Shown here: one piece after another, positions 32,952-57,709 of the stretch
How positions within the stretch are numbered: position 1 is the first letter of the stretch
Layout: every line of letters starts with the position of its first letter
DNA from: Mycolicibacterium tusciae JS617
GTDB lineage: Bacteria > Actinomycetota > Actinomycetes > Mycobacteriales > Mycobacteriaceae
Reading direction: 5' to 3'
DNA: 64,000 bases
Assembly: GCF_000243415.2 (NCBI RefSeq)
Contig: NZ_AGJJ02000001.1
Span: 1 to 64,000, forward strand
Program-made: the position numbers and the translations under genes
Notes under the pieces: model-generated
The model's database searches: none
What the model was told of the DNA's origin: nothing
What the model saw: the letters and a program-made list of their open reading frames with translations, nothing else

Positions 32952-32968
32952 AGGCAATGCGTAAACAA
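32952..32968 (-). promoter_or_regulatory. Putative conjugation-regulon promoter motif (copy 1)
   Basis: On the minus strand this reads TTGTTTACGCATTGCCT, matching the shared GTGTTYACGYAYTG motif. It precedes the minus-strand transfer operon that begins at 32930 and also covers the start of the divergent gene at 32957. Confidence 0.5.
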
Positions 32969-33790
32969 ATGTTGTTCAAGCCGAGTGTGGACCGATACGA
33001 CGAGTTGCGCCGCGAGTGGATCGCCGAGCACTCCGCAATCTTCACGATGCAGATACGCCGCGCCGAACTGCTCAACCGGCGCATCCGCCGCCGGCACCGC
33101 GAGACCGCGGGCGCCCGCCCCAACCCTTACGACGACCACGCCACCCACCCGTTGCTGAGCCGGGGCGCCAAGACCGTGGAGGCCAAACTCGAGCTGGCCA
33201 TCGTCACCTTTGCCGCACTCGCGGCACCACTGGGCTGGCCTGCGGGACGCTTCATCTACCAGCGCATCGAGGCGTTGATCCCCGACCGGCTGCGCTCCTA
33301 CCCCATCCCGGCGCTGTTGTTGGTCGCAGCGGTACTGGGCGCGGTGACAACTCTGCTGTATGACCCCGGGCAGGGGTTCACAAGCGCGATCCTGGCGCCC
33401 TGGCTGATGGCGCAGTTCCCAGCCGCCGCCCTGACCGCCGCTGTCTACGGCATCCTCAACGGTTGGTTGGCCATCGACGGCTCGACCGAGTGGTGGCCAC
33501 TGACCCCACCAGCGCCGTCGGTGGAGCTGCCCACCACACTGCTGCCCGACGACCTGACCGCACCCTCAGTGTTCGACACCGCACCAGTGGCCGACACCTT
33601 CGACCGCACCCCGCCCGGCGCCGGATCAATCCGCTCGCTGCCACGATCCTCCCGGCTGCTCACCGCTGCGCTGGTGGTCAATGTCCTCGGGATCATCTGG
33701 ACGCTAGCCGCCGTGGGTGTCGGCGTGAAAACTGTTGTCGTGGAATCGCTTACACCATCGAGCACCATCGGAGCCACCCACACACGCTGA
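32957..33790 (+). CDS. Hypothetical multi-pass membrane protein (277 aa)
   Basis: Not recognised. A basic N-terminal helix (RREWIAEHSAIFTMQIRRAE) precedes three or four membrane segments (AIVTFAALAAPLGWPAGRF; IPALLLVAAVLGAVTTLLY; LMAQFPAAALTAAVYGIL; and a late LLTAALVVNVLGIIWTLAAV). A soluble loop rich in Pro/Asp/Thr lies between the third and last. It is divergent from the conjugation operon, with the shared regulatory motif overlapping its start. An ATG at 32969 is an alternative. It may be an entry-exclusion or conjugation accessory protein, but this is a guess from position. Confidence 0.7.
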   Translation: MRKQMLFKPSVDRYDELRREWIAEHSAIFTMQIRRAELLNRRIRRRHRETAGARPNPYDDHATHPLLSRGAKTVEAKLELAIVTFAALAAPLGWPAGRFIYQRIEALIPDRLRSYPIPALLLVAAVLGAVTTLLYDPGQGFTSAILAPWLMAQFPAAALTAAVYGILNGWLAIDGSTEWWPLTPPAPSVELPTTLLPDDLTAPSVFDTAPVADTFDRTPPGAGSIRSLPRSSRLLTAALVVNVLGIIWTLAAVGVGVKTVVVESLTPSSTIGATHTR

Positions 33791-34099
33791 AGCACCGCGC
33801 ATTGACCCTGACTTCTCTGCTGGAGAAGCGGTGTCATCGACGTGGTCGACAGGCACCACAGACCGTGTGGAGCGCTGTCGTGTGGATTGGTTATCTCTAT
33901 GTCGTCCACGACAAGTCACTTCCACCGAGGAGTCGTCCAGGGCCGATCGGCGTTGTGATTGCTGAGCGTGCCATCGCAGAGAACCGCGAAGTCGTCCCGG
34001 CAGAAGGGACAGACGCCGCGCGGCTTGACGGACGGCGGATAATCGAGGCAGATTGCCTCGGGCGGATTGCGGCTACCTCTGCATCGCTTCACGCTTTGA
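33791..34099. other. Gap with no recognised gene
   Basis: About 310 bases between the membrane-protein gene and the decayed DUF4326 gene. Frames here are short and without ribosome sites. A minus-strand frame through 33916-34227 partly overlaps the decayed gene and is not a gene by itself. I see no repeat or strong hairpin. Confidence 0.5.
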
Positions 34100-34432
34100 T
34101 CAGGCATTGGCCAACTCCAGCAACACATCTGCATGACAAGGGGAATCCAGCGGGCACCAGCACACGAGGTCATGGCCGCGAAGTTCACGACGTACATCTT
34201 CGGTGCTGAATCTGCAGGAAACCGCAACGCAGATCGACCTCAAAGAACGAAACGGCATCGTCCGCAGTCATTCGGCGTGACCATGAGCGCCCCGCAGATT
34301 CGCAATGCACCACACTGCCCACAACGAACCGGGTTCCCCCACTTGCTCGGCCGTCCGACATAGATCCGCACCTTCCGGCATGCGCCAGCCCTTCGTTCTT
34401 CGGCGTTGGATGCGCTCAGGCGTTGGTTTCAT
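34100..34432 (-). pseudogene. Decayed DUF4326 gene with three frameshifts
   Basis: Read on the minus strand, fragments in successive frames join into a recognisable DUF4326 protein of about 110 aa: IQRRRTKGWRMPEGA, then IYVGRPSKWGNP, then FVVGSVVHCESAGRSWS and TADDAVSFFEVDLR, then RRELRGHDLVCWCPLD and SPCHADVLLELANA with a stop at 34100. Removing one base at each of three points (the A in GCGGATC, one G in CCCGG, one A in CGAAGA) restores a continuous frame. DUF4326 proteins are small cysteine-containing proteins of unknown function common in phages and plasmids. It lies just downstream of the coupling-protein gene. Confidence 0.8.
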
Positions 34433-34476
34433 GTCAGCCCGCATCCCATGTGGTAGCAACTGGTGCTGGACGACGA

Positions 34477-35934
34477 TCACAGCTCTGCGTCGTTGCGGGT
34501 GTCCGACCACAACCGGCGAAGCAGCCCCGCAGCACGCGAATACTGTGTGTCGCCAGCTTTCTCCTGCCGAGCGGTGCGCGAGAGTATCTCGCTGATCGCT
34601 GTGTCGTAGCGACGCAGGAACTCTGACCAATCCGGGATCTCCGCGCACACCCCAACCCCGCCGCGCACCAAGACTCGGGCGTGCTCACGCGTTGGCGGCA
34701 GTAACTCCTCCCACCGCAGTGACGGTCCTAGCTCGCTGCTGAGGCTCTTGTGCCCGTCGGCTTGCCCAAATTGCTGGTTCCTTCGATTGGTCAGCGGTGA
34801 CCAGGTTTGTGCATCCTCAAGAATCTGATCCTCGCGAGCGCCGAACATGATGACCGCTGCGCCAAAGATGTGACGAAGTTCCTCGGCAATGTCCTGCCCG
34901 TACACCCTGGCCAGGGACGACGATGCCTGGACTGCCGCAACGAGGTTGATACCCAATCCGCGGCCCTCACCCACGATCTTGGGCAGATTTGGTATCGGCG
35001 CGGTGTTGGGCAGCTCGTCGATGATCATGAGCAGTCGGTGCATCTGTTCGCGCGCTGATGTTTTCTCCCGCCACCGTCGTACGAGGGAGTCCAGGAGGGT
35101 GACCGCGGCCCCGGCCACGGTGCCGTCGGCCGGGGCCAGCACGTACAGCGTCGCCTGGGGGTCATCGAGGAACTCCAGCGTGAACGGCAGTGCGGCACCC
35201 CGATCTACCAGCGAGGTCCGCAGCCACGGCGTAATCGCTTTGCGCATGGTGATGGCCACCGAATCCCGTTGGCGCGGATCCATTTCCATGATCCGCATCA
35301 TGCCCACCGACAGCGTCGGGTACTGATGGCAGATCGCGGCGGCCTGTGCCCAGCCCGGTTCACTGGTGCTCTCCGGGTCAATGTTGTCCACGCCGGTCAA
35401 AACCCAGTTCATGCCCTTGCTGTTGCCCTGCGGACTGGCCGCGAACAAAAACGCCGCCAGTGGGCCGGCGGCCTGGGACTCCCACACCCCGCCGTCGGAG
35501 ACCTGATCGGCTCCCGAGCCCAACCCGACGGTGGCCATCTGCATGATCGTTTCGGCCACCGTCAACGCCTCGTAGGGGCTGTCGATGGTCACCGTCGGGT
35601 CGTAGACGTTGGCGACGATGCCGTCGGGGTACACCGGGGACGTTAAGGGGCGCAGGTCCAGCAGTGCCCGCGGCCCCCACCGGCGCTGCATGACGTTCTG
35701 CATCAGGTCGTCCTTGGACGACACCACCACCGCCGGGCCGCCCCACAGCACCGCCGCCGGCGCCAAGATGCGCCGCGACTTACCGGTGTCCGACGGTGCG
35801 GACACCAACACCATTGGGGCGCTGCGAGGCACATACAACTGCTCACGCTTGCCGACCACCCGGCGGCTGAAGCCGCAGTAGGTGGTAGGGGTGGGTGTGA
35901 ACGTCGGCGCCTCGCCCACCACAGGACTAGCCAC
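34477..35934 (-). CDS. Type IV coupling protein (TraG/VirD4-like ATPase)
   Basis: A 485-aa protein with Walker A VSAPSDTGKS at about 44-53, Walker B LLMIIDELPN at about 300-309, and the coupling-protein segments VVVSSKDDL and NLVAAVQASSSLARVYG. Coupling proteins bring the relaxase-DNA complex to the channel. It has no obvious N-terminal membrane helices, so anchoring may depend on a partner. GTG 35934 overlaps the TAG of the preceding gene; a longer frame to 36000 would overlap that gene by 74 bases. The neighbour upstream resembles part of this protein (about residues 100-220), which suggests a two-chain assembly. Confidence 0.88.
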   Translation of the reverse strand: MASPVVGEAPTFTPTPTTYCGFSRRVVGKREQLYVPRSAPMVLVSAPSDTGKSRRILAPAAVLWGGPAVVVSSKDDLMQNVMQRRWGPRALLDLRPLTSPVYPDGIVANVYDPTVTIDSPYEALTVAETIMQMATVGLGSGADQVSDGGVWESQAAGPLAAFLFAASPQGNSKGMNWVLTGVDNIDPESTSEPGWAQAAAICHQYPTLSVGMMRIMEMDPRQRDSVAITMRKAITPWLRTSLVDRGAALPFTLEFLDDPQATLYVLAPADGTVAGAAVTLLDSLVRRWREKTSAREQMHRLLMIIDELPNTAPIPNLPKIVGEGRGLGINLVAAVQASSSLARVYGQDIAEELRHIFGAAVIMFGAREDQILEDAQTWSPLTNRRNQQFGQADGHKSLSSELGPSLRWEELLPPTREHARVLVRGGVGVCAEIPDWSEFLRRYDTAISEILSRTARQEKAGDTQYSRAAGLLRRLWSDTRNDAEL

Positions 35935-36337
35935 AGCGCCGCTGCCCGAGCGGCCCGTCGGTGTCGATCGCCGCGCGAACCGCCGCCACGATCGAATCAC
36001 GCTGCCGGCATTCGCAGGTCAGTGTGCGCACGACCGACTGGCCCAGCACCGGTGCTGACACCGAACACCACAGAGCCGCATACGCCCAGCCCGGACTGCG
36101 CACATCCTCGGGGTCGACGTTGGCCAGTGCCGCCCGCACCCAGTCCATGCCCTGCCCGTTGCCGACTGGAGACGCCGCGAACAGCAGCGCCGCCAGCGGT
36201 TGGACCGCCTGCACCTCCCAGACGTCGGCGGGCCGACTGCGGCCCAGCCCGGCTCGTCCCACGCTGAGCAGGGTTTCCGCCTGGACTATCGCCGCGTGTG
36301 CGCTGTCCACATCAACGGTCGGGTCATCTGAACGCAT
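35927..36337 (-). CDS. Partial paralogue of the coupling protein, without Walker motifs
   Basis: A 136-aa protein that aligns along its length with the all-alpha region of the adjacent coupling protein. For example VWEVQAVQPLAALLFAASP here matches VWESQAAGPLAAFLFAASP there, and GNGQGMDWVRAALANVDPED matches GNSKGMNWVLTGVDNIDPES. It starts at the point corresponding to the DPTV segment and lacks Walker A and B. Its TAG stop overlaps the GTG start of the coupling protein, so both are translated together. It could be a regulatory or structural subunit that joins the coupling-protein ring, or it may recognise the relaxase. The start at ATG 36337 is chosen over a longer frame to 36391 that runs into the promoter motif. 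Confidence 0.75.
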   Translation of the reverse strand: MRSDDPTVDVDSAHAAIVQAETLLSVGRAGLGRSRPADVWEVQAVQPLAALLFAASPVGNGQGMDWVRAALANVDPEDVRSPGWAYAALWCSVSAPVLGQSVVRTLTCECRQRDSIVAAVRAAIDTDGPLGQRRCG

Positions 36338-36366: not shown

Positions 36367-36384
36367 CAGTCAATACGTGAACAC
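36367..36384 (-). promoter_or_regulatory. Putative conjugation-regulon promoter motif (copy 2)
   Basis: On the minus strand this reads GTGTTCACGTATTGACTG, the best match to the shared motif. It ends about 30 bases upstream of the ATG at 36337, which opens the coupling-protein unit. Confidence 0.6.
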
Positions 36385-36398: not shown

Positions 36399-38285
36399 TT
36401 AGGTCTGTGCTTGAGCCCTGCGCCGTTCCTGCGACTCGCGCAGCCAGTCCGCCGCCCGCGCGGAGTTGGTCCGCATCTCTGGAGGCAGCGCCTGCTGATG
36501 CCCGTAGTGCACGTCCTGCGCAGTGAGCAGGGTCAGCGTGTCCGCGTCGAGGTCGGTGCCCAGCTCGGGATCGGACAGATCGGCGCCGCTGAGGCCCAGG
36601 GAGCTCACGATGCGGCTGTTGCGGTTCAGCTGCGCCTTCTCCACCACCGTGCGCACGAAACGCCCGTTGCCCAGGCCGTCGATCACACGGATGACATCAC
36701 CTTCGCTGCTGGTGATTTGAGCGTTGTAATACTGCGCGAAACTCTCCCGCAGCGACAGCAGCGCATCCGGCGCGAAGGTGTCACCGTCCTTGGCCGCGAT
36801 CCCCTCCATGATCGCTATCAACTGATCCGGGTCGTATGAGGCGTACTCGATGAGGGTGGCGAAACGCGATCGAAGCCCGTCGTTGGAGGCCAACACGCGC
36901 TGACTGGCCATCGGATAACCGGCGGCGATGACCACCATGTCGTCGCGGTGGTTCTCCATGAACGGCACCAGGGTGCTGATGATGGCTTGGCCGTACGGGT
37001 CACCCGATCCGTAGCCGGTGTGGATGAGATCGCCGAACTCGTCGATGAACACCGTGGCACCCAAACCCGCTTCGAGTTGCTCGCGCGTGTTGTTCTCGGT
37101 GTCACCGACGTGACGGCCGAACAGCTTGTCGCGGCGGGTCTCATAGACGTCGGGCCGGCGTAGCAGCCCCAGTCCGCAGAAGATGTGGGCGATGACCCGC
37201 GCCGAGACGGTCTTGCCGACTCCGGGGGGACCCACCATCAGCAGATGCCGCGACACCGGCGACGTCGGCAACCCCTTGCGTTGCCGCAGGACTCGCGCGA
37301 TCGAGTCGTGGCGCAGTTCGGCGATGCGGGCCTTGACTTCATCCAGGCCGACCATCGCCTCCAACTCCGCTTCGGCATCAGCAAGCAGCGTCTGCGCCGA
37401 GCGTGCCGACTCCTGCGCTGCCCGCTCCTCGGCGCTGGTCTCGGTGGAGGCATCCCAGCGGTCCGTGCGCGTCTCGATCGTCTGCGGATCAGTGATCTGC
37501 AGACCAAAGGTCGGATCCGACAGCGCGGTCTGGGCGCGCTCGAAACCGGGCCACTGCACCCGGATGTTGGTCAGGACCGTCCGCGCCTCCTCAGCCTCGC
37601 CCCGGTGGCGCAGCACCAGCGCCCGACAAAACAGCGCGTCGCGGGTCAGCTCGTCGCTGCCCTGCTGGGCGCTGGGCTTCCATCCCGACGCCGTATCCTC
37701 GGCGGGCGGATTGACCACCAGCTCGACAGCTTCCAAAGCCCGGTCACTGAGCCCCAACGAGGCTGCCGCCCATGCCTCCTGCAGGCTCGCAGCCCTGCGC
37801 AGATGCGGATCGCTATGCCACTGCCGGCAGTTGCTCACCGCGACCAGGACATCCGGCCAGCGTTTGGTGGCCGTGGCTAGAACCGACCGCACATAGCCCA
37901 CCGCCGGAGTCGTCGGCAGCTCGAACAGGGCGCTGTCGGCGCCCTGCCAGTTCTGCTCCCGAATCAACGCCGCAGCATAGGCCAGCCGTGCGGTGGTCGC
38001 GTCCACAATCGGCATCCGCACATAGTCGATGTCGAAGTGCGCTCCCAGATCGGCGGGCCGGTGCTGGATACGGCGCAGACCCTCGCCGAGCCGGTCGGCG
38101 TGGCTGGCCAGCCGCTCGAGCACCTGCACGGACCGCTCCCCTGTCGCATACCGGCCCAACCAGGCGTCGGCCAGCTCCGGGTTGTCCCCGGTGGCCAGGA
38201 CGAATACCTGCGCAGCCCGATCCGGCGAACTGTGCAGCACCTTCATCGCCGCACGCAGCGCCTGTAATGAACGCTCATCAATCAC
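36399..38285 (-). CDS. eccA: EccA, AAA+ ATPase of the ESX system
   Basis: A 628-aa protein with the two-part EccA plan: a TPR-like helical N-terminal domain to about residue 290, and a CbxX/CfqX AAA+ ATPase domain. Walker A is GPPGVGKT at about 352-359, Walker B TVFIDEFGD at about 410-418, and sensor-2-like arginines follow near the end. EccA is cytosolic and is thought to help release EspG-PE/PPE complexes for secretion. Its ATG overlaps... the eccE stop (ATGA at 38282-38285), so the pair is coupled. As the last ecc gene it closes the ESX run before the coupling-protein unit. Confidence 0.95.
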   Translation of the reverse strand: MIDERSLQALRAAMKVLHSSPDRAAQVFVLATGDNPELADAWLGRYATGERSVQVLERLASHADRLGEGLRRIQHRPADLGAHFDIDYVRMPIVDATTARLAYAAALIREQNWQGADSALFELPTTPAVGYVRSVLATATKRWPDVLVAVSNCRQWHSDPHLRRAASLQEAWAAASLGLSDRALEAVELVVNPPAEDTASGWKPSAQQGSDELTRDALFCRALVLRHRGEAEEARTVLTNIRVQWPGFERAQTALSDPTFGLQITDPQTIETRTDRWDASTETSAEERAAQESARSAQTLLADAEAELEAMVGLDEVKARIAELRHDSIARVLRQRKGLPTSPVSRHLLMVGPPGVGKTVSARVIAHIFCGLGLLRRPDVYETRRDKLFGRHVGDTENNTREQLEAGLGATVFIDEFGDLIHTGYGSGDPYGQAIISTLVPFMENHRDDMVVIAAGYPMASQRVLASNDGLRSRFATLIEYASYDPDQLIAIMEGIAAKDGDTFAPDALLSLRESFAQYYNAQITSSEGDVIRVIDGLGNGRFVRTVVEKAQLNRNSRIVSSLGLSGADLSDPELGTDLDADTLTLLTAQDVHYGHQQALPPEMRTNSARAADWLRESQERRRAQAQT

Positions 38286-39928
38286 GGCCGCAGCGCTCCC
38301 GTGCGCAGATGAGTCAGGAACTGCGCTTCATTACGGGGACGCATCACCGACAACCGCACCCCACGCACCGCCGGGGTGCCGATCACCAGCTCATCCGGGG
38401 ACTCCTGCACGATCGTTAGATCAGCATCGGAGTCCACCGACCCCACGGTTACCAGACTGTGTCCCCGCTCGCCGGCCGTCAGCGCCAGCCCCTCGCCGTC
38501 GGCCACGATCACCGTCGGCTGCCGCACCGGGTCGCGGTCACCGGCCAGGCTGATCCGATAATGGTTGTCGCACAACGGTCGCCACACATCGGGACGATCA
38601 CTGTGGATCAGGATCACCGCCCCGGCGGCACTAGTCCGCAGCAGCAGCGGGATCACGACCGACAGGTCGGCGCTGATCGAAACCCGCGTCGCCCGAAGCG
38701 GATCGGTCAGCGGCATCAGGAACGGGACCCCGGTCACGGTCATGCCGAACATCGGCCCCGATGGACCCACCGCAATCTTGAGGTCGCCGCCGTCGCCCAG
38801 CAGACGTGGCGACAATTGCAAACGCAAAGCCCTGTCCCCCAACGGCAACGATGCCAGCAGAGAGTCGAAGGCCTGACCGGAGACCGGCTGCAGTGCCAGC
38901 AGCGGAGGGTGGGGCAACGGGGCGTCGGTGTGGAACCGCACCAGAGCGGCCACGCGGCAGCTGCCAGCCCGGTCACCGACCAACCTCACTGTGGTGACGG
39001 TGCGGTGTGCCCGCACCGTCCACAGGTCGTTGAGCATCTTGGTGTTCAGGTCACGCCCGGCGATGCGGTAGGTGGTCACGTAGTCGGCGTCGGCGTCCAG
39101 GTTAGACCAATTCTCCTGCACTCGACTGAGATCGGTGTCGTTGAGCAGGGCCGCGAAGGCTGCGCTGATCTGCGGTGCGGTGCAGGTCACCGCTCGGCAG
39201 CCCGCCCGCAGCACCGCTTGGCGCACCCGCTCAGTGGCCGCCGCGGCAGCCGCGGCGGCATCGCCGCGATACAGCATCGCCGCCAGACACGCCTGCGGGC
39301 ACAGCCGCAACACCAGCCAGGAGCGGCGGTCGCCGACGGCAGCACGGTCGCCGACGATCTCGGCGTACTTAGGGGTGTAGCTGCCGTCGGCGGCCACCCG
39401 GCTGCCCGCCTGCACCACGTCCACCGAGTGCAGCTCCAGACCAGCGAACTGGGTCAACCGCGACCGGATCGCCTCCAATGGGATCGTGTCGATGGTCTCT
39501 GCCCCCGCCGGCACCAGCACGGTAGGTGAGAACGCACGTCCGTGCAGGGCGATCAGCGTGACCGCGTACTGGCCGTCCCAGATCATCCCCACCGGCCCCG
39601 CACCGGGCATGTCCACGGTGAACGGCTCGGGGATACGGGTGCGGGCCCGGCGGGCACTTTCGCGGCGCCCGAAGTACACGAACCGCACCCACCGGGCCAG
39701 CCAGCCGGCCGCCGTCGCACCGTTGTAGCTGGCGGTCACCACCAGCAGCACCACAAGCACGACCAGCGGAATCAGCCACCACGGCACCGGTGAGGCCGCG
39801 ACCAGGATCGCCGCGGCGATCAGTTCGGCGATCACCACCAGCTTCAGCCGCACATCCAGTCGCCAGCGTCGTATCTGCTCCCCGAACCCTGCGTGTGGGC
39901 CGGGGATTTGCTCATCGAGCACGGTCAC
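38282..39928 (-). CDS. eccE: EccE, ESX membrane component
   Basis: A 548-aa protein with two adjacent N-terminal membrane helices (about 28-46 and 48-66), a basic cytoplasmic stretch (RFVYFGRRESARRARTR), and a long soluble domain of the EccE type. EccE sits at the periphery of the hexameric ESX membrane complex with EccB, EccC and EccD. Together with mycP upstream (9 bases away) and eccA downstream (4-base overlap) it gives the eccD-mycP-eccE-eccA order usual in ESX loci. It is somewhat longer than many chromosomal EccE proteins (about 400-460 aa). Confidence 0.9.
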   Translation of the reverse strand: MTVLDEQIPGPHAGFGEQIRRWRLDVRLKLVVIAELIAAAILVAASPVPWWLIPLVVLVVLLVVTASYNGATAAGWLARWVRFVYFGRRESARRARTRIPEPFTVDMPGAGPVGMIWDGQYAVTLIALHGRAFSPTVLVPAGAETIDTIPLEAIRSRLTQFAGLELHSVDVVQAGSRVAADGSYTPKYAEIVGDRAAVGDRRSWLVLRLCPQACLAAMLYRGDAAAAAAAATERVRQAVLRAGCRAVTCTAPQISAAFAALLNDTDLSRVQENWSNLDADADYVTTYRIAGRDLNTKMLNDLWTVRAHRTVTTVRLVGDRAGSCRVAALVRFHTDAPLPHPPLLALQPVSGQAFDSLLASLPLGDRALRLQLSPRLLGDGGDLKIAVGPSGPMFGMTVTGVPFLMPLTDPLRATRVSISADLSVVIPLLLRTSAAGAVILIHSDRPDVWRPLCDNHYRISLAGDRDPVRQPTVIVADGEGLALTAGERGHSLVTVGSVDSDADLTIVQESPDELVIGTPAVRGVRLSVMRPRNEAQFLTHLRTGALRP

Positions 39929-39937
39929 GGTCGCCCC

Positions 39938-41359
39938 CTACTGTCCTCGTCGCGATTTCGACATCGACGTCACCAGCAGCACCACACCCAGCGCCAGCAG
40001 CAGCGTGGTGGTTCCCGCCACTGCCATGATCATCGGCCGATGATCCGGCGGGGGTGGGGGCGCCGGAGGTCCCAGCGGTCGTGTCAGGTTCTCCCGAGGT
40101 GGTGGGATTTCGGGGACGTCGAAGTTCAGCGCCGCCAGCGGGTCGATCACCCCGTAGCCGACCCTGTTGTCCACCACCGAGGCCGGGGAGTGGGCGGTCT
40201 GCTTGATCCGGTTGATCACCTGTGCGGCAGGCAGATCGGGATACTTGGCGCGGATTAGCGCCGCCAGTCCCGACACATACGCCGTAGCAAAGCTTGTGCC
40301 GCTCATCGGCTTCAACTCCGAGGTCTGCGGATCGACGGTGGCGTTGATGATGCCCCCGGCAGGGTTGACGCCCTCCACGAACAGACCCGGAGCGCCCACC
40401 CCGACCCACGGCCCGGCCAGGCTGATGTCGGCGCCCTCCTGGGTCTGCGCGGGCTGCCCCCGGTCATCGGTCGCACTCACCGACAGCACATAGTTGGAGA
40501 ACCACGACGGCGTACTGATCGTCACCACCCCACCCCAGTTACGCGGATCATCAACATTGGTGGCGTCGATGTTCGGGTTCTGGGAACACCCTGTGCCCAT
40601 GGGCATTCCGGCGCTGGCGGCATTGGCGTTCCCGGCCGCAGCCACCAGCACGACATCCTTTTCCATCACCGCATATCGCACCGCGGCACCGAGGGTGGTC
40701 TGGTCGACCGGCTTGGTCACCGGCACACAGGACACGATCGACATGTTGATCACCCGCGCACCGGAGTTGGCGGCGTGCACGATCGCGCGGGCCAGCGTGC
40801 TCACCGTGCCCGCGCGTGCGTCATCATCGTTGCCCCCGCGTTCGCGCACGAACATGCCCGAGGACTGGCGGATCGAGATGATCTCGGCCTCCGGGGCGAC
40901 CCCGACCAGGCCGTCGCCCTCGGCCGGGCTGGCGCCGATGATGCTGGCGACCACGCTGCCGTGGGTGTCGCAGTCCGACAGCCCGTCGCCGGCCATCACG
41001 TAGTCCCCGCCGCCGCGCAGGTGGGGCAGACGCGGAGAGGGCCACACGCCCGTGTCGATCACCGCGACCGTCACGCCGGCGCCACGCCCGGCAGACTCCC
41101 ACAGCTCTGGCAGATTCATGAACGTCTGCGCTGCCGGCGGCACGGCCACGTCGGTGCCCGGCATCAGCGCGTTTCCAGGGCATTCGTAGCGTTGCTTCAT
41201 CGGCTCGTCCGGGCCGGGTTCGCCATCGGCGGGAACAGCGGTCGGATCGATCGCCGGAGGTGTGATCGCCGCGGCGGTACCCGACGGCCACATCAGTGCC
41301 AGCACCGCGGCCATTGCCGCGACCGCCAGACGACGCCCGATCCCCACGAAGGCGGTCAT
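39938..41359 (-). CDS. mycP: MycP, mycosin (subtilisin-like serine protease)
   Basis: A 473-aa mycosin. A signal peptide (about residues 1-31, RRLAVAAMAAVLALMWPSG), then a subtilisin domain with Asp in AVIDTGVW (about 101), His in CDTHGSVV (about 132) and Ser in SGTSFATAY (about 353). A proline-rich linker and a single C-terminal membrane helix (AVAGTTTLLLALGVVLLVTS) complete it. MycP is anchored on the outer side of the cytoplasmic membrane and stabilises the ESX complex. ATG 41359 with AAGGAAC upstream overlaps the eccD stop by one base and is preferred to a longer frame. Confidence 0.95.
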   Translation of the reverse strand: MTAFVGIGRRLAVAAMAAVLALMWPSGTAAAITPPAIDPTAVPADGEPGPDEPMKQRYECPGNALMPGTDVAVPPAAQTFMNLPELWESAGRGAGVTVAVIDTGVWPSPRLPHLRGGGDYVMAGDGLSDCDTHGSVVASIIGASPAEGDGLVGVAPEAEIISIRQSSGMFVRERGGNDDDARAGTVSTLARAIVHAANSGARVINMSIVSCVPVTKPVDQTTLGAAVRYAVMEKDVVLVAAAGNANAASAGMPMGTGCSQNPNIDATNVDDPRNWGGVVTISTPSWFSNYVLSVSATDDRGQPAQTQEGADISLAGPWVGVGAPGLFVEGVNPAGGIINATVDPQTSELKPMSGTSFATAYVSGLAALIRAKYPDLPAAQVINRIKQTAHSPASVVDNRVGYGVIDPLAALNFDVPEIPPPRENLTRPLGPPAPPPPPDHRPMIMAVAGTTTLLLALGVVLLVTSMSKSRRGQ

Positions 41360-47435: not shown

Positions 47436-47450
47436 GACTCCTGCAGCTCC

Positions 47451-47795: not shown

Positions 47796-47826
47796 CCTAA
47801 CACATTGTTAGGCACTTCGTACACAC
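47796..47826 (-). promoter_or_regulatory. PE-operon promoter: inverted repeat plus regulon motif (copy 4)
   Basis: Bases 47796-47812 are a perfect inverted repeat (CCTAACA, 3-base centre, TGTTAGG). The adjoining 47811-47826 reads GTGTGTACGAAGTGCC on the minus strand, a weaker match to the shared motif. The gap from 47763 to 47917 should hold the promoter of the PE-PPE-esx-espG unit. Confidence 0.5.
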
Positions 47827-50914: not shown

Positions 50915-50916
50915 GT

Positions 50917-52068
50917 CTAGACAACCTCCCTGGCCCGCAACAGATTTCCCACCGCATCGAACTTCATCGCCGTCGCCGACGTCGCCAGCGACGAAAAGTA
51001 GTCGTTGGTGGCCTCCACCACCGCCACCCCGGCGTAGCCGGTAGTGCCCAACAACGGTGAACAGTTCGCGCCGGGCATGTCCACCACAATCACCCAATGG
51101 TCCTCCGCGCGGGGCTGTCCCTCCATCGGTGGTGACCACGCTGGCCGACTTGTCCACTGGTCCCCGAAGCGCTCCATGAACTCCCCCACATCGTTGTAGA
51201 TCATCCGCACCGGCCCACAGGCGTCGACCAGCTCAGGATCAGCGACATGGGGCCACCACTTCGCCCACTCCCACGCCTGCGGGTCGTCGCTGATGATCGC
51301 CAGCCGCACCACGTCGGGACCATGGAACACACACAACTGGCACACCAGCGCCCGCAATGTCCCCTGCAGCAGCGCGCGCTGGGCCTCATCGGCGAAGAAC
51401 GCCCACCCCATCTGGTCGAACAGGTGCAGTGGCCGTGCCACGTCGTGCACCACGTTTTGCGCCAACAGGAAATCGCGCGCCGCGATAGCCGTCGAAGTCT
51501 CCCGGTACTCCGGGGGCGGCACCTTCTGCGGCGGGTTGATGATCGTGCGCAACCGGGTCACCCCCAGCCCCAGCCGCACATGCCCGAAATTGCGGTCAGT
51601 GGGTCGACGCTCCCACATTCGGCCCGTGCCGACCATGGTCAGCAGCGAACCGTTGCAGGGATTGGGATGGTGATAGGCGATCTCGGCGGCCTGCTCCTGA
51701 GCGCCGACGGTCACGTCCTCGCGCAGTTCATCCAGACTGCGCATGTAGTCCAGCCTGGTCTGGGCCAGCGCCGCAGGCTTGGTTTTCTCGTTGGTGCCCC
51801 CGCCACGGTTGCGCAGCATCATCAACATCGACACCAACATGATCGGCATGATGAACATGCCGCCCAGGCCGATCGAGCGGGCGCCGGTTCGGATCATGAT
51901 CACCAGCAACACGATCACCGCGACCACGAAGATCAGCACCCACACCCACACGGGGGGCCGCTGCTGCGGCGGCCGCGTGATCTCGCCGATCTCGGGCATC
52001 GTGGCGGTGCGTTCCGGCAGGATCGGCGCCGCCGGCTTCTCCTTGTCGTAACCCTTCTTCGTCGTCAT
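50917..52068 (-). CDS. eccCa: EccCa, membrane-anchoring part of the ESX motor
   Basis: A 383-aa protein equal to the N-terminal third of EccC. After a polar N-terminus come two membrane helices (VWVWVLIFVVAVIVLLVIMI at about 38-57 and MFIMPIMLVSMLMML at about 68-82), then the stalk and the degenerate ATPase-like DUF domain (PEYRETSTAIAARDFLLAQN; HVRLGLGVTRLRT). It contains no Walker A. It anchors the motor in the membrane complex. The start ATG 52068 overlaps the eccB stop (ATGA). The split to eccCb falls before ATPase 1, unlike ESX-1, where EccCa1 includes ATPase 1. Confidence 0.9.
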   Translation of the reverse strand: MTTKKGYDKEKPAAPILPERTATMPEIGEITRPPQQRPPVWVWVLIFVVAVIVLLVIMIRTGARSIGLGGMFIMPIMLVSMLMMLRNRGGGTNEKTKPAALAQTRLDYMRSLDELREDVTVGAQEQAAEIAYHHPNPCNGSLLTMVGTGRMWERRPTDRNFGHVRLGLGVTRLRTIINPPQKVPPPEYRETSTAIAARDFLLAQNVVHDVARPLHLFDQMGWAFFADEAQRALLQGTLRALVCQLCVFHGPDVVRLAIISDDPQAWEWAKWWPHVADPELVDACGPVRMIYNDVGEFMERFGDQWTSRPAWSPPMEGQPRAEDHWVIVVDMPGANCSPLLGTTGYAGVAVVEATNDYFSSLATSATAMKFDAVGNLLRAREVV

Positions 52069-53609
52069 CGTGTGCCTTTCTCGTTCATCGGCGCGGCCGC
52101 CGGGTTGGCGCCCAAGGTGTCGTGCTCGACCATCGCCGACTGCCGCGACAACGCCGGGCCGGCCGGAAGCCAACGCACCACCGCCCACGGCGCCGGGGTC
52201 GGCGTCACCTCCGACAATCCCAGTGCGCGCAGCGGATCATGTTGTCTGTCAGAGGTTTCGATGCCGAAGCGCACACCGCTGTGGCCGATCCACCACACCG
52301 ACTCGCTACGCCCGGAATCAGGTTCGACACCGGTCACCTGGACAAAGTTCGCGCTGCCCGGCCCTAGATACACCTCGTCGGCTGACTGCTGGCCCGCCTG
52401 CGCCGACACCATCCTGATGACCCGCGACTCCTCGCCTTGGGCGATCGGCAGCCGCCGACCCGACACCGTGGTCACGGTCGCCTGCGGTGCACCCGAATCC
52501 TTGCGCCACATCACGCAGGTGACCGGTTCGGCGGCCTTGTCCAGCAGCTTCACCGGCCCGTTGGGATAGGCCGACACATCGAAGCCGACGGCCTGCGGAG
52601 CGGCCGCAACCATCGGAGCCTCCACGTCGAGCACCCGACCCTGCCGAGACACATTGGCGTTGTGCAGCATCAGCGCCACCGTCTCCGGAATCATCTGCAG
52701 CCCTGCCGGCAGTGCCACAAAGAACTGGTCGTCGCCGGCAGCACTGCGCGACTTGACCACCGACCCCGACACCACCGCCAGCCCAGGCCCGGCATACCCG
52801 ACCGGGCCTCCCGGGGAGGGCACGTCGGGCACCCGCAGCGGTGCGGTCGGAATCAACGCCTCATACAGTGCCCGCGACATCGGAGTGGGCCGAAGATTGC
52901 CCGCCTGCAGCCCCAGCGCCAGCATCACCGGCTTGTCGGCCAGATCGAGCTGCGAGCGGTGCCCATCGGTGACCAAAAAGACGCTACCGCCGTAGGTCAT
53001 CAACACCGCATCCGGTGAGGCCATCTCGTGCGCCCAATCCCCCAACTCGGACTGTCCGGTCAGCGCGGTCACCCGAGGAGTCGCCAAAGTGCCCGCAGTG
53101 CCGGCCTTATCGCACAACCCCCACCCGGTGTCGGCGGGAGTACGCGCAGTCAAATCATTCGGAGCCCCGACGATGCCGACGGCCGGACCGATCGGCCGCT
53201 CCTCGATCTGCGCCATTGGCACCAGCGTCGGGGAAGCGTCCTGGCCGAGGATCAGCCGGGCAGACGCCAGATTCAACACCGGGTGCATCGTGTTGTTGAC
53301 ATCGACGAACAGTGCCCCACTGCCGCGGTCAGCCACCAGCTTGGAATTACCGATCTGGCCCACCGGCTTCAGCCACGACAGCACAAAGCACACCCCGAGT
53401 GCCAACGCGGCGATGACCACCCCGACTGTGGCCGCCGCCCCGTAATTCTTCGACGGATCATGCACCAGTCGCACTGAATGGCGAGCGACCGCCACCGCCA
53501 TGCGGTGCCACAGAAACCGCCACGCCGCAACCTGTTCCAAAGAGGCGTAGGTCAATCCGGTCCCGCCGCGGCGCCGCTCGGCCCGATGGGTGCGCTTCGG
53601 TTCCTGCAT
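52065..53609 (-). CDS. eccB: EccB, ESX periplasmic/membrane component
   Basis: A 514-aa protein with a cytoplasmic N-terminus (YASLEQVAAWRFLWHRMAVA), one membrane helix at about 57-80 (TVGVVIAALALGVCFVLSWL), and a large extracytoplasmic domain with the EccB repeats. Cys residues in WGLCDKAG and PVTCVMWRKD fit the conserved disulfide. The C-terminus is extended (RQSAMVEHDTLGANPAAAP). EccB forms the periplasmic ring of ESX complexes. It is coupled to eccCa by a 4-base overlap and starts 3 bases after the secreted-protein gene before it. Confidence 0.93.
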   Translation of the reverse strand: MQEPKRTHRAERRRGGTGLTYASLEQVAAWRFLWHRMAVAVARHSVRLVHDPSKNYGAAATVGVVIAALALGVCFVLSWLKPVGQIGNSKLVADRGSGALFVDVNNTMHPVLNLASARLILGQDASPTLVPMAQIEERPIGPAVGIVGAPNDLTARTPADTGWGLCDKAGTAGTLATPRVTALTGQSELGDWAHEMASPDAVLMTYGGSVFLVTDGHRSQLDLADKPVMLALGLQAGNLRPTPMSRALYEALIPTAPLRVPDVPSPGGPVGYAGPGLAVVSGSVVKSRSAAGDDQFFVALPAGLQMIPETVALMLHNANVSRQGRVLDVEAPMVAAAPQAVGFDVSAYPNGPVKLLDKAAEPVTCVMWRKDSGAPQATVTTVSGRRLPIAQGEESRVIRMVSAQAGQQSADEVYLGPGSANFVQVTGVEPDSGRSESVWWIGHSGVRFGIETSDRQHDPLRALGLSEVTPTPAPWAVVRWLPAGPALSRQSAMVEHDTLGANPAAAPMNEKGTR

Positions 53610-53612
53610 ACT

Positions 53613-54680
53613 TCAGTACCCCCCGCCCAATGACGCCACATGAACGTGGTCGTAGTGATTCTGTGTGGCGTTGCCCTGATCGTCCATCCTCGAGGAGCTA
53701 CCGTCCGGTTGGATCATCTGCTGTCGCCAGATGATGTGGTCCAGGCCCAGCGGCTTTTGGTTGCGGATCAAGAAGTTGACCACCCGATCACCCAAGGCAC
53801 GCCCCTCGGCGGTGTCCCAGTTCGGGATCATCACATCCAGCGCCAGCCCGTCGGGGTGCCATTTCAGCGCGTCTTGCCGCCAACCGCCGATTTCCTCGAT
53901 CTCCGGGAACGCGTTCGAGATCGCCCGGTTCATCAACTTCGTGTACTGCTGCAGACCGCGCTCGCTGGCCTTCCCGGGCCCGCTGGTGTCCAGACCAGGA
54001 ATTGCCGCCGAAGCCAGCTTCGCGGCGGGGCTGCCGTTGCTGCCGGTCAGTTTGGCTGCTTGGGTGAAAGGGGCGGTCAGCCCGCTCAACCCGGATAGCG
54101 GTGCACCGAAACCGGGCATCCCACCGCCACCCATCGGCATTCCGCCGCTCATCGGCATGGCGCCCAACGGATTTGCGCCCATCCCCGCAGGGCGGGTCAG
54201 ACCCGCGACGTCACCGTAACCGGCGGCGTTAGCGTTGGCTGAGGCCGCGTGCGTGCCCGCCTCAGCAGCACCGGTCTGCACCGTGCCGCGAGTCTCCTCC
54301 AACCGAGTCTTAATCGCGGCGATCAACGCCCGCTTGCCCTCCGGAGTGTTGGTACTCAACCCCAGCGCCTGCACGTCGGCCACCGCCGCAGCGATGATCG
54401 ACTCCATGTTCCCCCGGCCCCCCGACGCCGAGGCCCCCGCCGCATCCAACTCGGCGCGGCCGGTGGCATCCAGGGCATCCAGCGCAGCCGTCGAGTTGTG
54501 GTGCTCGACGGCCGAATCCTGCTGACCATCAGCGGCCTGACCCTCACCGGGAGTGATCGACGGCGGCGGAGCCGGACCCAACGGCGCCACCGGCAACAAC
54601 ACCCCAACCCCGGTACCGAAACCATCCCGCGCCTGACCCATCACCCCACCAGCAGCACGCACAAACCCCTCCACCGACAT
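53613..54680 (-). CDS. Secreted-type protein: shared N-terminal module plus peptidase-like C-terminal domain
   Basis: A 355-aa protein. Residues 1 to about 220 are a helical module (NMESIIAAAVADVQALGLST and LIAAIKTRLEETRGTVQ, resembling DUF4226 proteins) and a Gly/Met/Pro-rich linker. The C-terminal domain (about 235-352) looks like the ARB_07466-like/LAS-type fold: GWRQDALKWHPDGLALDVMI then HIIWRQQM and NHYDHVHVA, with His and Asp residues suited to bind zinc. Such domains act on peptidoglycan. The first 220 residues are encoded by DNA almost identical to the next gene. Its ATG overlaps that gene's stop. A role in wall remodelling for the ESX or conjugation channel is inferred. Confidence 0.75.
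   Translation of the reverse strand: MSVEGFVRAAGGVMGQARDGFGTGVGVLLPVAPLGPAPPPSITPGEGQAADGQQDSAVEHHNSTAALDALDATGRAELDAAGASASGGRGNMESIIAAAVADVQALGLSTNTPEGKRALIAAIKTRLEETRGTVQTGAAEAGTHAASANANAAGYGDVAGLTRPAGMGANPLGAMPMSGGMPMGGGGMPGFGAPLSGLSGLTAPFTQAAKLTGSNGSPAAKLASAAIPGLDTSGPGKASERGLQQYTKLMNRAISNAFPEIEEIGGWRQDALKWHPDGLALDVMIPNWDTAEGRALGDRVVNFLIRNQKPLGLDHIIWRQQMIQPDGSSSRMDDQGNATQNHYDHVHVASLGGGY
54021..54668 (-). repeat. 648-bp direct repeat, copy A
   Basis: This segment, encoding the shared N-terminal module, is repeated at 55172-55819 (offset 1,151). I noticed only one difference (A at about 54570 against C in the other copy). Identity breaks off sharply at the junction with the different C-terminal domains. 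Confidence 0.85.
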
Positions 54681-55858
54681 CAGTAACCACCGCCTGCAGA
54701 GTTCGGGTTGAACTGCGCAACCTTCGACAGATTCGACCCGCTGGGATCAACCCCGTAGCGGCTCATCACATAGTTCATCGACGCACACAGGTTGGCCACC
54801 GGCTCATAGATGTTCGTCGCCGTACCAGGCTGGTGAAAGCTCGCGAACGTCTCCGGAATCGTCTGCACACCGCCGCGTGACGAACCCGCCGGGAACCCGT
54901 CCGCCGCCGAGCCGGCCAACCGCGTGGCGTTCATGTCGGAGGTGTTGACCGCCAACGGATTGAAGCTGGACTCCCGCGCTGCAGCGGTCATCAACCCGGT
55001 CATCCATCGTGCCCGAGCCCTCGGGTCGTCAACGCCCATCACGTCAAGCGCTTCGCTGATGTATCCCCGATAGGCATCCCTGCCCGCCGGGAACTTCTGC
55101 CGGTCGTACCGCACAGCACTGAGCGGGATCTTCGCTGCCTGCGACACCGCTGACTTCGACCCGCCCGTGCCCGCGGCGGGGCTGCCGTTGCTGCCGGTCA
55201 GTTTGGCTGCTTGGGTGAAAGGGGCGGTCAGCCCGCTCAACCCGGATAGCGGTGCACCGAAACCGGGCATCCCACCGCCACCCATCGGCATTCCGCCGCT
55301 CATCGGCATGGCGCCCAACGGATTTGCGCCCATCCCCGCAGGGCGGGTCAGACCCGCGACGTCACCGTAACCGGCGGCGTTAGCGTTGGCTGAGGCCGCG
55401 TGCGTGCCCGCCTCAGCAGCACCGGTCTGCACCGTGCCGCGAGTCTCCTCCAACCGAGTCTTAATCGCGGCGATCAACGCCCGCTTGCCCTCCGGAGTGT
55501 TGGTACTCAACCCCAGCGCCTGCACGTCGGCCACCGCCGCAGCGATGATCGACTCCATGTTCCCCCGGCCCCCCGACGCCGAGGCCCCCGCCGCATCCAA
55601 CTCGGCGCGGCCGGTGGCATCCAGGGCATCCAGCGCAGCCGTCGAGTTGTGGTGCTCGACGGCCGAATCCTGCTGACCATCAGCGGCCTGACCCTCACCG
55701 GGAGTGATCGACGGCGGCGGCGCCGGACCCAACGGCGCCACCGGCAACAACACCCCAACCCCGGTACCGAAACCATCCCGCGCCTGACCCATCACCCCAC
55801 CAGCAGCACGCACAAACCCGTCTACCGACACTCCTACCGCGCACCCGTTCCCACACAT
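54680..55858 (-). CDS. Secreted-type protein: shared N-terminal module plus lysozyme/transglycosylase-like domain
   Basis: A 392-aa protein whose N-terminal module (to about residue 229) is identical to that of the following gene, but with a different C-terminal domain. About residues 240-390 read AYRGYISEALDVMGVDDPRA, then LMTAAARESSFNPLAVNTSD with a candidate catalytic Glu, SRGGVQTIPETFASFHQPGT, and YEPVANLCASMNYVMSRYGV. This is a lytic-transglycosylase/lysozyme-like (SLT or phage tape-measure type) fold. It probably cuts peptidoglycan glycan strands. The homologous start would be GTG 55831; ATG 55858 adds nine residues. It overlaps the next gene by one base. Confidence 0.75.
   Translation of the reverse strand: MCGNGCAVGVSVDGFVRAAGGVMGQARDGFGTGVGVLLPVAPLGPAPPPSITPGEGQAADGQQDSAVEHHNSTAALDALDATGRAELDAAGASASGGRGNMESIIAAAVADVQALGLSTNTPEGKRALIAAIKTRLEETRGTVQTGAAEAGTHAASANANAAGYGDVAGLTRPAGMGANPLGAMPMSGGMPMGGGGMPGFGAPLSGLSGLTAPFTQAAKLTGSNGSPAAGTGGSKSAVSQAAKIPLSAVRYDRQKFPAGRDAYRGYISEALDVMGVDDPRARARWMTGLMTAAARESSFNPLAVNTSDMNATRLAGSAADGFPAGSSRGGVQTIPETFASFHQPGTATNIYEPVANLCASMNYVMSRYGVDPSGSNLSKVAQFNPNSAGGGY
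55172..55819 (-). repeat. 648-bp direct repeat, copy B
   Basis: Second copy of the module at 54021-54668. The near-perfect identity at DNA level over a GC-rich coding region implies recent duplication or ongoing gene conversion. Confidence 0.85.
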
Positions 55859-55904
55859 CTCAGTGCGTCTTCGGCGGGGTCATCATGGTCATGTCTCTCG
55901 TCAA

Positions 55905-57320
55905 TCAGTCAGCGGCCGGTGCCGGGGCCGGTGAGCCCGCCTTTGCCGCAGTCGGATCGAACCAGCCCAAAAAGTCCGGGCCCGAACTCACACTCTCCAG
56001 CGGCTGCACCTGCCCGGACACCAGCACCTTGCCGTCGCCCAACGCCATCACCAAATGGTCCTTCCACATGCCCACATCCCCCGCCTTGAGCTGCGTCGGG
56101 GGCACCGGATCGGTCACCGGAGTGCCCGCCGGCGGCAGCGTCACACCCGCAGCCTGCTGCCACGCCTCGGCCACCGGAGTGCCCCCCAGCGCCGAGCGCA
56201 CGGCCTCCGCGCCCTGCGGCGTCCGCGCCTCAGTCACCGAGTTGTCGGGCAACTGCACATCAGTCGACTTCGTCGCCGGTTCCACCGTCTCGGCCTGCTG
56301 CCCCTCCTGGTCCGCGCCAGCGGCCTGAGTCTGCGCCGACTCCTCCTCGGAATCACTGTCGCTCTCGCTCTCGGATGCCGACTCGGTCGCGGCCTCGTCC
56401 TCGGCGAAGTCCGGGCCAGCTTCCTCGGCAGGGCTCGCCTCGTCGTCGGTGAAGTCCGGGCCAGCTTCCTCAGCAGGCTGCTGATCGCTGAACCCTGCCA
56501 GCGTCGAGGCCAGCGGGTCCATAAACCCAGTGGGTAGCCCCCCGCCGCCGCCGAAGCCCGGCAATCCGCCGCCACCACCGCCGAACCCAGGAATGCCCCC
56601 CATCGGCATCCCGCCCCCCATCGGCATGCCCATGCCCAAACCCGGCTGACCCAACATCCCAGCCGGGGCGGTCTGAGCCTCCTCCTGCGCCGAATCAGCT
56701 TCCACAGCAGCGCCATTGGCGCCGCCGCCGTCTGCACTGTCGGGTGCAGTGCCCACGTCGCTGTACCGGGTGGCGTTGTCCTGCGACACCGCCGCCTTGT
56801 CCTCGGAGTCGGCCGCGGCCTTCTCGATGACCGTTCGAGCCTCCTCCAGACGGGTCTTGACGAAATCCATCAACGCCTTCTGACCCTCAACGGTGTACAG
56901 CGCCCCGTCAGCCTTCATCTGCTCGATCTTGGCCATCACATCGGCGCGGATGTTCTCCAGCTCCTGGCGGCCGACCTCACCCGCAGCCGCCACCTCCTCA
57001 GCGCTGATCCCCGCACTGTCGAGCTCCACGAGCTGCTCCAGCATCTCGCCCACACGTCGAGCCTCCTCTTTGGCCGCCTCAGCAGCAGGCCCCTCAGCCT
57101 CCTCCGGCGGCACCGGAGGCGCCGGAGGAGGAGGCGTCGGCGACGGCTGACCGGGCACCTCAGGCGCAGTCGGGGCGTCGCCCCCGCCCCCGTTCTCTGG
57201 CCCGTCACCCTCAGTGTCGGGGCCAGGCGACAACGGCAGCAGCGGCGCCAGCTTGGTGATCCCAATGATCGCGTTGGTGATCACCGTCTCGGCAGCTTTG
57301 CTAACAATGTCCCACGACAT
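55905..57320 (-). CDS. DUF4226-like acidic ESX accessory protein
   Basis: A 471-aa protein with a helical N-terminal module (EEARRVGEMLEQLVELDSAG; GQKALMDFVKTRLEEARTVI), similar in plan to the N-terminal modules of the next two genes. The centre is Gly/Met-rich (MGGGMPMGG repeats). An acidic tract has a near repeat (PAEEAGPDFTDDEAS then PAEEAGPDFAEDEAA) and a Ser/Glu/Asp run. A C-terminal domain of about 110 residues (LKAGDVGMWKDHLVMALGDG) faintly resembles NlpC/P60-like cores but without the catalytic Cys-His pair being evident. ATG 57320 has GGGAG upstream. Probably secreted or involved in secretion; function unknown. Confidence 0.65.
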   Translation of the reverse strand: MSWDIVSKAAETVITNAIIGITKLAPLLPLSPGPDTEGDGPENGGGGDAPTAPEVPGQPSPTPPPPAPPVPPEEAEGPAAEAAKEEARRVGEMLEQLVELDSAGISAEEVAAAGEVGRQELENIRADVMAKIEQMKADGALYTVEGQKALMDFVKTRLEEARTVIEKAAADSEDKAAVSQDNATRYSDVGTAPDSADGGGANGAAVEADSAQEEAQTAPAGMLGQPGLGMGMPMGGGMPMGGIPGFGGGGGGLPGFGGGGGLPTGFMDPLASTLAGFSDQQPAEEAGPDFTDDEASPAEEAGPDFAEDEAATESASESESDSDSEEESAQTQAAGADQEGQQAETVEPATKSTDVQLPDNSVTEARTPQGAEAVRSALGGTPVAEAWQQAAGVTLPPAGTPVTDPVPPTQLKAGDVGMWKDHLVMALGDGKVLVSGQVQPLESVSSGPDFLGWFDPTAAKAGSPAPAPAAD

Positions 57321-57337
57321 GCAACTCTCCCTAGTAA

Positions 57338-57625
57338 CTAGAAGTTCAATGCACGCTCGTCGGCAGCCACCGCGTCAAGCGTCGGACACGTCCCAACAAT
57401 GCCAAGATTGGCCAAATACCGGTCATGAGCGACGGCGGCGACCTTGCGGACACGATTGTTCAACGTCACCGAATCCCAGTTCCGAGCGTCGGGCTTCAAC
57501 ACCACCCCACACACAAAACCCAGGCCATTGACCTGCACAAACACCGTGCGCTTCGCGGAGATAGCCGTCGCCGCAACCTGCTCGCCAAGATCACCGGCCG
57601 TCTCAGCAGCCTCCTGCTCCGTCAC
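57338..57625 (-). CDS. Small ESX-locus protein (95 aa), unknown function
   Basis: A short soluble protein (RTVFVQVNGLGFVCGVVLKP, NNRVRKVAAVAHDRYLANL). The strand-strand-helix layout resembles small DUF2694/DUF2710-type proteins encoded in ESX-1-related loci, but I cannot confirm the family. GTG 57625 has AGGGGA just upstream and is preferred to GTG 57643. It is the first gene after the regulatory motif at 57691-57709 and heads the unit that runs through eccB and eccC. Confidence 0.65.
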   Translation of the reverse strand: MTEQEAAETAGDLGEQVAATAISAKRTVFVQVNGLGFVCGVVLKPDARNWDSVTLNNRVRKVAAVAHDRYLANLGIVGTCPTLDAVAADERALNF

Positions 57626-57690
57626 GGTTCCCCTTCCGGCCACACACCCACGTCACCTGACCCGCATACTGCTGGACATATTACACATAT

Positions 57691-57709
57691 TCATGCAACG
57701 GGTGAACAC
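57691..57709 (-). promoter_or_regulatory. Putative conjugation-regulon promoter motif (copy 5)
   Basis: On the minus strand this reads GTGTTCACCCGTTGCATGA followed by ATATGTGTAATATGTC, which contains a -10-like TAATAT. It precedes the unit 57625 to 47918 (accessory proteins, eccB, eccCa, eccCb). Confidence 0.55.

Follow-up and report, generated by a model that had tools for sequence, protein, structure and literature searches.

How a conjugative plasmid could bring two different secretion machines into action together is the question raised by the window analyzed here, a stretch of 64,000 nucleotides from Mycolicibacterium tusciae JS617 that corresponds to bases 1 to 64000 of contig C1 (111,842 bp). 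C1, judged to be a plasmid by its gene content, makes up 1.5% of the DNA of a mycobacterial genome of 7.3 Mb in four contigs, and carries both a type IV-like transfer module and an ESX (type VII secretion) module. ESX conjugative plasmids are thought to need both systems for transfer. We found that the same operator precedes several unlinked units at seven sites on C1, forming a shared, conserved, plasmid-specific cis-element that links the two secretion machines and the rep unit. The motif would be the operator-promoter of a plasmid-wide transfer regulon, with a tandem helix-turn-helix (HTH) protein of C1 as the best candidate factor, a reading to which we give a probability slightly below one half (about 0.48).

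The initial annotation had reported five matching sequences in intergenic gaps, 25 to 80 bases upstream of a start codon. All five were found on the minus strand exactly where it had placed them (Table 1), all lie between genes according to our own gene calls, and the distances from their 3' ends to the start codon fall within that range: 31 bases for the VirB4 unit (ATG 32921), 30 for the type IV secretion system (T4SS) coupling protein (T4CP) unit (ATG 36337), 75 for espI (GTG 44318), 49 for PE (ATG 47762) and 48 for the accessory unit (GTG 57643). The VirB4 unit and a divergent gene, whose start was placed at ATG 32969, are 47 bp apart, and the VirB4 site takes up this gap. The list of units in the annotation was incomplete, as two further units carry the box outside the window, both on the plus strand. 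The site at C1:65223 precedes a ribbon-helix-helix (RHH)-like gene followed by a rep-like gene (14.4 bits with the five-site matrix), and the one at C1:107485 precedes an SNase-like lipoprotein gene and an alpha/beta-hydrolase-like gene (18.0 bits). A scan with the same matrix gave no site before the mobF relaxase gene (11219-17356).

As the annotation had proposed, the five-site matrix was scanned over C1 and related plasmids, and counterparts were recovered before orthologous genes of plasmids down to approximately 44% EccC identity. Within the window, this 16-bp matrix ranks its own five sites first (17.3 to 22.5 bits, the next match having 14.1), a result that is circular for these five. 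Twenty third-order Markov simulations of 111,842 bp gave a mean of 0.15 matches above 17 bits. The weakest site (57709, 17.3 bits) would not stand alone, because three of the 20 simulated maxima exceeded 17 bits (17.6, 18.3, and 18.5), and the 14.4-bit site at 65223 depends on its orthologs in NZ_CP020810 (locus L001, 91% identical; 14.4 bits) and in NZ_CP118918 (L002, a Mycobacterium chelonae plasmid; 17.5 bits). Chance similarity picked by eye might account for the weakest single sites, given those maxima, but conflicts with the orthologous sites that other plasmids carry, and we regard it as a nearly negligible explanation. Across the genome, the pattern TGTTYACGNANTGNC with at most one mismatch had 52 matches against 41 for a reversed control. 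Six of the 52 fell on C1 (binomial P of 1.4e-4), an enrichment that is not independent, since the pattern was written from these sites. A strict pattern with the same origin placed four of its 11 genome matches on C1, and its seven chromosomal matches against three in the whole-genome control are too few for a fine decision. Outside C1 there was no clear excess of the motif (46 TGTTYACGNANTGNC matches against 41 in the whole-genome control).

Judged from its sequence, the element appears to be composite, with the box TGTTYACG directly upstream of a SigA-like -35 (nTGnCT) and a -10-like element at a preferred distance. Among 34 hand-collected sites, which were selected by similarity, G3, T4, C8, and T13 are present in all 34, A7 in 33, T5 and G14 in 31, and T2 in 30. 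The -10 score, obtained with a self-written matrix of the TANNNT type and averaged over 28 partly related sites, was the highest of all offsets at a start 35/36 bases from the first base of the motif (paired mean of 2.60), with secondary peaks at 24/25 (1.78) and 27/28 (1.49); several sites (PE and RHH) have weak -10 hexamers beside the overall peak, which lies at the expected 17- to 18-bp spacing. Some sites carry a second box, either direct at 11 bp or inverted. An ATG begins at position 48, the place expected for the transcription start, at the VirB4 site in three plasmids and at the T4CP site in two. Two of these ATGs are annotated gene starts (L002 38262 and L001 15381), while in NZ_CP122995 (L052, an M. 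aubagnense ESX plasmid) the next annotated gene follows the VirB4 site at a distance of 458 bases. The identical box-to-ATG distance at the VirB4 and T4CP promoters suggests leaderless mRNAs, predicted to start at ATG 32921 and ATG 36337, and with such starts the box would span about -46 to -39 and the -35 hexamer about -36 to -31.

In the mechanism that we propose, each copy would join the factor box to a SigA-type promoter with its -10 at about -13 to -7, and a plasmid-encoded factor at the box would contact RNA polymerase at the -35 (class-II activation). The geometry may be that of such a factor, although a repressor on the same bases, blocking the polymerase, could also fit and seems less likely. 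The VirB4 operon, the coupling protein, espI-ecc, PE-PPE-esx, accessory-eccBC, RHH/rep, and nuclease/hydrolase units would be switched together. The annotation had suggested that one transcription factor or sigma factor co-ordinates both machines. The shared cis-element partly supports this, and a transcription factor is favored over a sigma factor because the most conserved box lies upstream of a recognizable -35 and -10 and because no sigma gene was seen among the shared genes, in which no sigma-family search was run; the regulator itself is a prediction. An alternative sigma factor reading the element would be consistent with the near-fixed spacing over approximately 40 bp and with the secondary -10-like peaks, and NZ_CP118918 has an annotated sigma-70 family gene, outside the shared list; against the SigA-like hexamers downstream of the box, however, we consider it very improbable.

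Conservation was followed in related plasmids and in a set of 20 EccC loci from public genomes plus plasmids. The EccC of C1 itself is 100% identical to loci in M. novocastrense and M. rhodesiae JS60. When the window-only matrix was applied to five related plasmids, its highest-scoring matches were mostly at orthologous promoters. With a matrix of the seven C1 sites, the best four matches on the M. chelonae plasmid were intergenic promoter sites (VirB4, RHH, PE, and espI, with 17.1 to 23.0 bits, the next having 15.1), and all eight matches of at least 16.3 bits on the M. aubagnense plasmid were intergenic, these calls resting on incomplete gene tables in both plasmids. Six of the eight are promoter sites (espI, VirB4, a hypothetical gene, the rep region, PE, and hydrolase), and the other two overlap in one low-complexity stretch facing no listed gene. 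On two distant ESX plasmids, neither of which is pRAW or pCBMA213_2, the best full-motif scores were 13.8 and 14.2 (99,999 of 112,641 bp and 50,000 of 91,789 bp scanned). Joint control of the two modules through a shared cis-element is thus well supported, since the motif is recovered in diverged plasmids and reaches at most 14.2 bits on the scanned parts of the distant ones.

By promoter, the espI site scored at least 16 bits on the coding strand in 19 of 24 regions (best on the other strand, 9.6), and at two of the five misses (L036 and L040) the locus is without a MinD-like match. A refined matrix of 26 sites of our choosing gave at least 17 bits at espI in 20 of the 22 loci with espI in view (the misses being L034 and L044) and at least 16.0 bits at PE in 19 of 26 regions, where the espI and PE counts take in near-identical loci (e.g., L030 to L032, or L025 and L026 with the window) as well as training loci. 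Orthologous VirB4 sites are found at L001 12480, L002 38215, and L052 44543, with a weaker one in NZ_CP023152 (L093 4212, 15.6 bits). Full-motif orthologs of the accessory site are present only in close relatives (L001 39551, L027 3326, and L028 3317), with a bare TGTTYAC in the same gap of the M. chelonae (39628) and M. aubagnense (115647) plasmids; the T4CP gap of the M. chelonae plasmid also has a bare TGTTYAC (61376). The RHH/rep and hydrolase sites are kept in several diverged plasmids. Conservation is therefore broad at espI, PE, and VirB4 and narrow at T4CP. Two later loci, outside the training set, gave sites of 20.3 and 18.5 bits in genome G237 and of 26.2 bits in G241. These data also bear on whether the sites could be plain SigA promoters of common descent, with the box as -35-flanking context read by no dedicated factor. 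The -35 and -10 are indeed SigA-like and near-identical plasmids share similar sites through common ancestry, but the box is common to different promoters of one plasmid, is kept down to approximately 44% EccC identity, is not in clear excess outside C1, and recurs as direct or inverted repeats, so that we find this explanation improbable.

Genes common to four of the plasmids include three DNA-binding or likely DNA-binding proteins: a small XRE regulator, the rep-like protein, and the tandem-HTH protein. The last one is the most clade specific. Of 72,556 plasmid records, five have it, and these are also the five top-ranked ones for this EccC; XRE, at its threshold, is found in 15 records and Rep in 126. 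A search that covered all but one of the 20 EccC loci found the tandem-HTH protein in each of the 19 genomes concerned, once in two pieces. Among 297 genomes, EccC was found in 22, the tandem-HTH protein in 24, and both in 21 (P of 5e-28, a value that ignores relatedness), with three genomes having the protein without EccC (G133, G285, and G312). HTH_3 matches all 13 family members (E up to 0.1, best 3.3e-6) and HTH_26 matches seven. That the tandem-HTH protein binds the box is an inference, as are the positions of the transcription starts and the choice between activation and repression. With E values up to 1 accepted, a model of EspM, an ESX-associated regulator, matches seven of the 13 members (best 7.5e-6), and a pairwise hhalign comparison of the first HTH with EspM gave a probability of 92.6% (E of 4.6e-7, 26% identity, 76 columns). 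The first HTH thus appears to be distantly homologous to that of EspM, although the link is weak. When the family profile was searched against the chromosome, of two weaker matches, one was an EspM match adjoining a WhiB gene and the other adjoined a different WhiB gene; no WhiB match was found on C1. That this clade of ESX plasmids has a dedicated EspM-related master regulator, which through a single box would switch the type IV-like channel together with the type VII machine and the replication unit, would be a stronger claim, which we hold as doubtful.

Several observations weigh against a regulon read by the tandem-HTH protein. At the level of the sites, the T4CP site has a sole full-motif counterpart (L001 15428, in NZ_CP020810), no site was found at espI of L044 or in the entire L036 locus, L034 lacks the box at both espI and PE, and one 16.9-bit match lies inside eccC of L029. 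In genome G059, which has two EccCs and two candidate proteins, the PE leaders, the sole leaders in view, are without the box (11.8 and 8.1 bits). As for the candidate, no box was found up to 600 bp upstream of its gene in the three plasmids examined (best forward/reverse scores of 2.8/1.0, 3.5/6.6, and 1.0/5.8), G241 has an EccC (ending at a contig edge) and a site but no close tandem-HTH protein, and the co-occurrence with EccC would suit any core plasmid gene. With respect to EspM, the protein of C1 itself scores 12.1 bits with the EspM equivalog NF052403, near noise against a cut-off of 550, and was not classed as EspM, an unrelated model appeared at E of 0.24 in the same scan as the EspM match, and the two best chromosomal matches of the family profile are not EspM matches. 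EspM is reported as a repressor (PMC11005418), and the position of the box alone cannot separate activation from repression. The PE leaders of G059 (L111 and L112) and of L034 show GTTCA and TGTGT stretches, which may be a diverged version of the box.

The regulon could also be real with another protein as its reader, be it the RHH protein (C1:65323-65838), the small XRE regulator, Rep, or an unrecognized conserved protein, several conserved genes being without a family match; this is a quite possible alternative, less probable than the tandem-HTH protein. The RHH protein was our first choice, as its gene carries the box in its own promoter in C1, NZ_CP020810, and NZ_CP118918. It was demoted because a search of the M. 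aubagnense ESX plasmid, where the box is present, gave no RHH homolog (E limit of 1e-4), and because the box is missing upstream of the gene in all seven relatives examined from other plasmids; a second plasmid of that M. aubagnense strain (NZ_CP122998) does have an RHH relative, so that action in trans is possible. XRE is found at E of 1e-10 or better in 17 of the 19 genomes behind the EccC loci, but its promoter carries a different palindrome and it also occurs on Gordonia plasmids (eight of its 15 records), and the wide occurrence of Rep stands against it as well. We rejected XRE on account of that palindrome, a WhiB protein for its absence from C1, and a ParA partner for the lack of a TGTTYAC array upstream of the C1 par genes. 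The tandem-HTH protein remains our preferred candidate.

Table 1. Coordinates of the promoter sites, transcription units, and regulators. Positions are those of the window unless preceded by C1; the extent of the transfer operon was deduced from gene direction (Pfam, open reading frames, and conservation).
Feature	Position	Strand	Remarks
Site 1, VirB4/TcpC operon promoter	32952..32968	-	Box TGTTTACG (32967-32960), -35 TTGCCT (32957-32952)
Site 1, -10-like CAGCAT	32929..32934	-	Prediction; best pick of the script was CATGAT, three bases further on
Site 2, coupling-protein promoter	36367..36384	-	Box TGTTCACG (36383-36376), -35 TTGACT (36373-36368), -10-like CAGGAT
Site 3, espI-eccD-mycP-eccE-eccA promoter	44393..44410	-	Box TGTTTACG (44409-44402), -35 CTGTCT (44399-44394)
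Site 4, PE-PPE-esx-espG promoter	47811..47826	-	Box TGTGTACG (47825-47818); direct near-copy TGTGTAT 11 bp upstream
Site 5, accessory-eccB-eccC promoter	57691..57709	-	Box TGTTCACC (57708-57701), -35 TTGCAT (57698-57693)
Type IV-like transfer operon	20518..32921	-	Downstream of site 1
Transfer operon, first genes	From ATG 32921; 31465-32682; 30495-31445; 30193-30465	-	The first a small protein, the third TcpC-like
Transfer operon, next genes	27315-30149; 25198-27321; 23935-25137	-	The first VirB4-like AAA_10, the third DUF1173; more same-strand genes follow
Divergent conserved gene	32969..33790	+	Start set at ATG 32969, adjoining the box, as annotated in NZ_CP020810
Coupling-protein unit	34477..36337	-	Two genes: small protein and T4SS coupling protein
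Small protein, coupling unit	35927-36337	-	Ortholog annotated VirD4 in NZ_CP020810
T4SS coupling protein	34477-36000	-	Pfam T4SS-DNA_transf
espI-ecc unit	36399..44318	-	espI/MinD-like (42888-44318), eccD, mycosin, eccE, eccA; Pfam
PE-PPE-esx-espG unit	44480..47762	-	PE, PPE (46212-47435), EspG (44480-45412); Pfam and annotation of relatives
Two small genes of the PE unit	45816-46121, 45489-45776	-	Second annotated WXG100 in relatives
Accessory-eccB-eccC unit	47918..57643	-	Accessory genes 57338-57643, 55905-57320, 54680-55858, 53613-54680
Accessory unit, ESX genes	eccB 52065-53609; eccC 47918-51157	-	Pfam and ortholog annotation
Accessory unit, gene annotated FtsK in a relative	50917-52188	-	
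Small XRE regulator (HTH_3)	16..351	+	Start probably ATG 91, as in the annotated NZ_CP020810 ortholog
Tandem-HTH protein, 293 residues	C1:73474-74355		Two HTH-like repeats; HTH_3 0.00091, HTH_26 0.074

Pfam matches on the minus strand of the window cover both modules, in agreement with the initial annotation, with VirB4-like AAA_10, TcpC, and T4CP on the type IV-like side and EccA, EccE, a subtilase (mycosin), EccD, a MinD-like protein (the espI of the initial annotation), EspG, PPE, EccC, and EccB on the ESX side. The spacer of the PE promoter (window 47796-47812, minus strand) contains the inverted repeat CCTAACA-ATG-TGTTAGG, of which one arm base differs in NZ_CP020810 and which is absent on the M. 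chelonae plasmid. A perfect palindrome, GGGTGG-ATTTAG-CCACCC, stands upstream of the XRE gene, across the ends of C1, as well as in NZ_CP020810, and is possibly the operator of this regulator itself. The RHH gene followed by the rep-like gene spans L009 2223-5199 (C1:65223-68199). An RHH relative also precedes rep in several small mycobacterial plasmids, where leaders such as GCGTGTCGTTATCAGGTAAC occur, and the arrangement may represent a copy-number control unit. On an M. chimaera plasmid (L004, minus strand), the rep gene region is preceded by a tandem of two good boxes and a weak one (5887, 5983, and 6080). The M. aubagnense plasmid has, between a phd-family gene and a PPE gene (L052 31800-31840), three copies of TTTACGTA approximately 12 to 13 bases apart, which were scored by the matrix and face no listed gene. 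One distant ESX plasmid, whose scanned part is without the motif, has a WhiB gene near accessory and ESX genes (L092 20392-20937), and a different control may operate there. An Rfam search of three relatives at the gathering threshold gave no match.

Known plasmid circuits offer partial parallels. In IncP plasmids, KorA and KorB are repressors that control their own operon, and one operator serves replication and transfer promoters. The element of C1 is likewise common to the replication and transfer promoters of a conjugative plasmid, but its box has a near-fixed place upstream of the -35 and is not found before the candidate gene. In the F plasmid, TraJ and TraY provide plasmid-encoded control of one long tra operon, and the putative factor of C1 would also be a plasmid-encoded switch for transfer genes. 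EspM, tied to ESX-1, is a parallel as an HTH factor associated with an ESX locus, and it is with its first HTH that the tandem-HTH protein aligns. The M. marinum EspM, reported to act at whiB6, carries an FHA domain at its N terminus that is missing in M. smegmatis (PMC7002343, PMC11005418). The plasmid protein differs in having two HTH-like repeats, in the absence of WhiB from C1, and in its presumed targets, structural operons and rep instead of whiB6. Type IV-like and ESX modules are found together in ESX-P conjugative plasmids such as pRAW and pCBMA213_2, the latter reported to carry whiB6 (PMC4791881, PMC5452490), unlike the C1 plasmid.

Control over the timing of both transfer systems seems to be unreported, no such element appearing in the literature searched, which mostly left subscription papers outside. 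With the box before most groups of both machines and before the replication genes, one plasmid-borne switch probably governs the transfer program. Now that a box is defined and a candidate factor is available, transfer control can be tested directly in environmental mycobacteria. The link to EspM, if real, would join the control of plasmid transfer to that of chromosomal ESX systems, and ESX control by EspM on the chromosome and the plasmid circuit would then share an origin.

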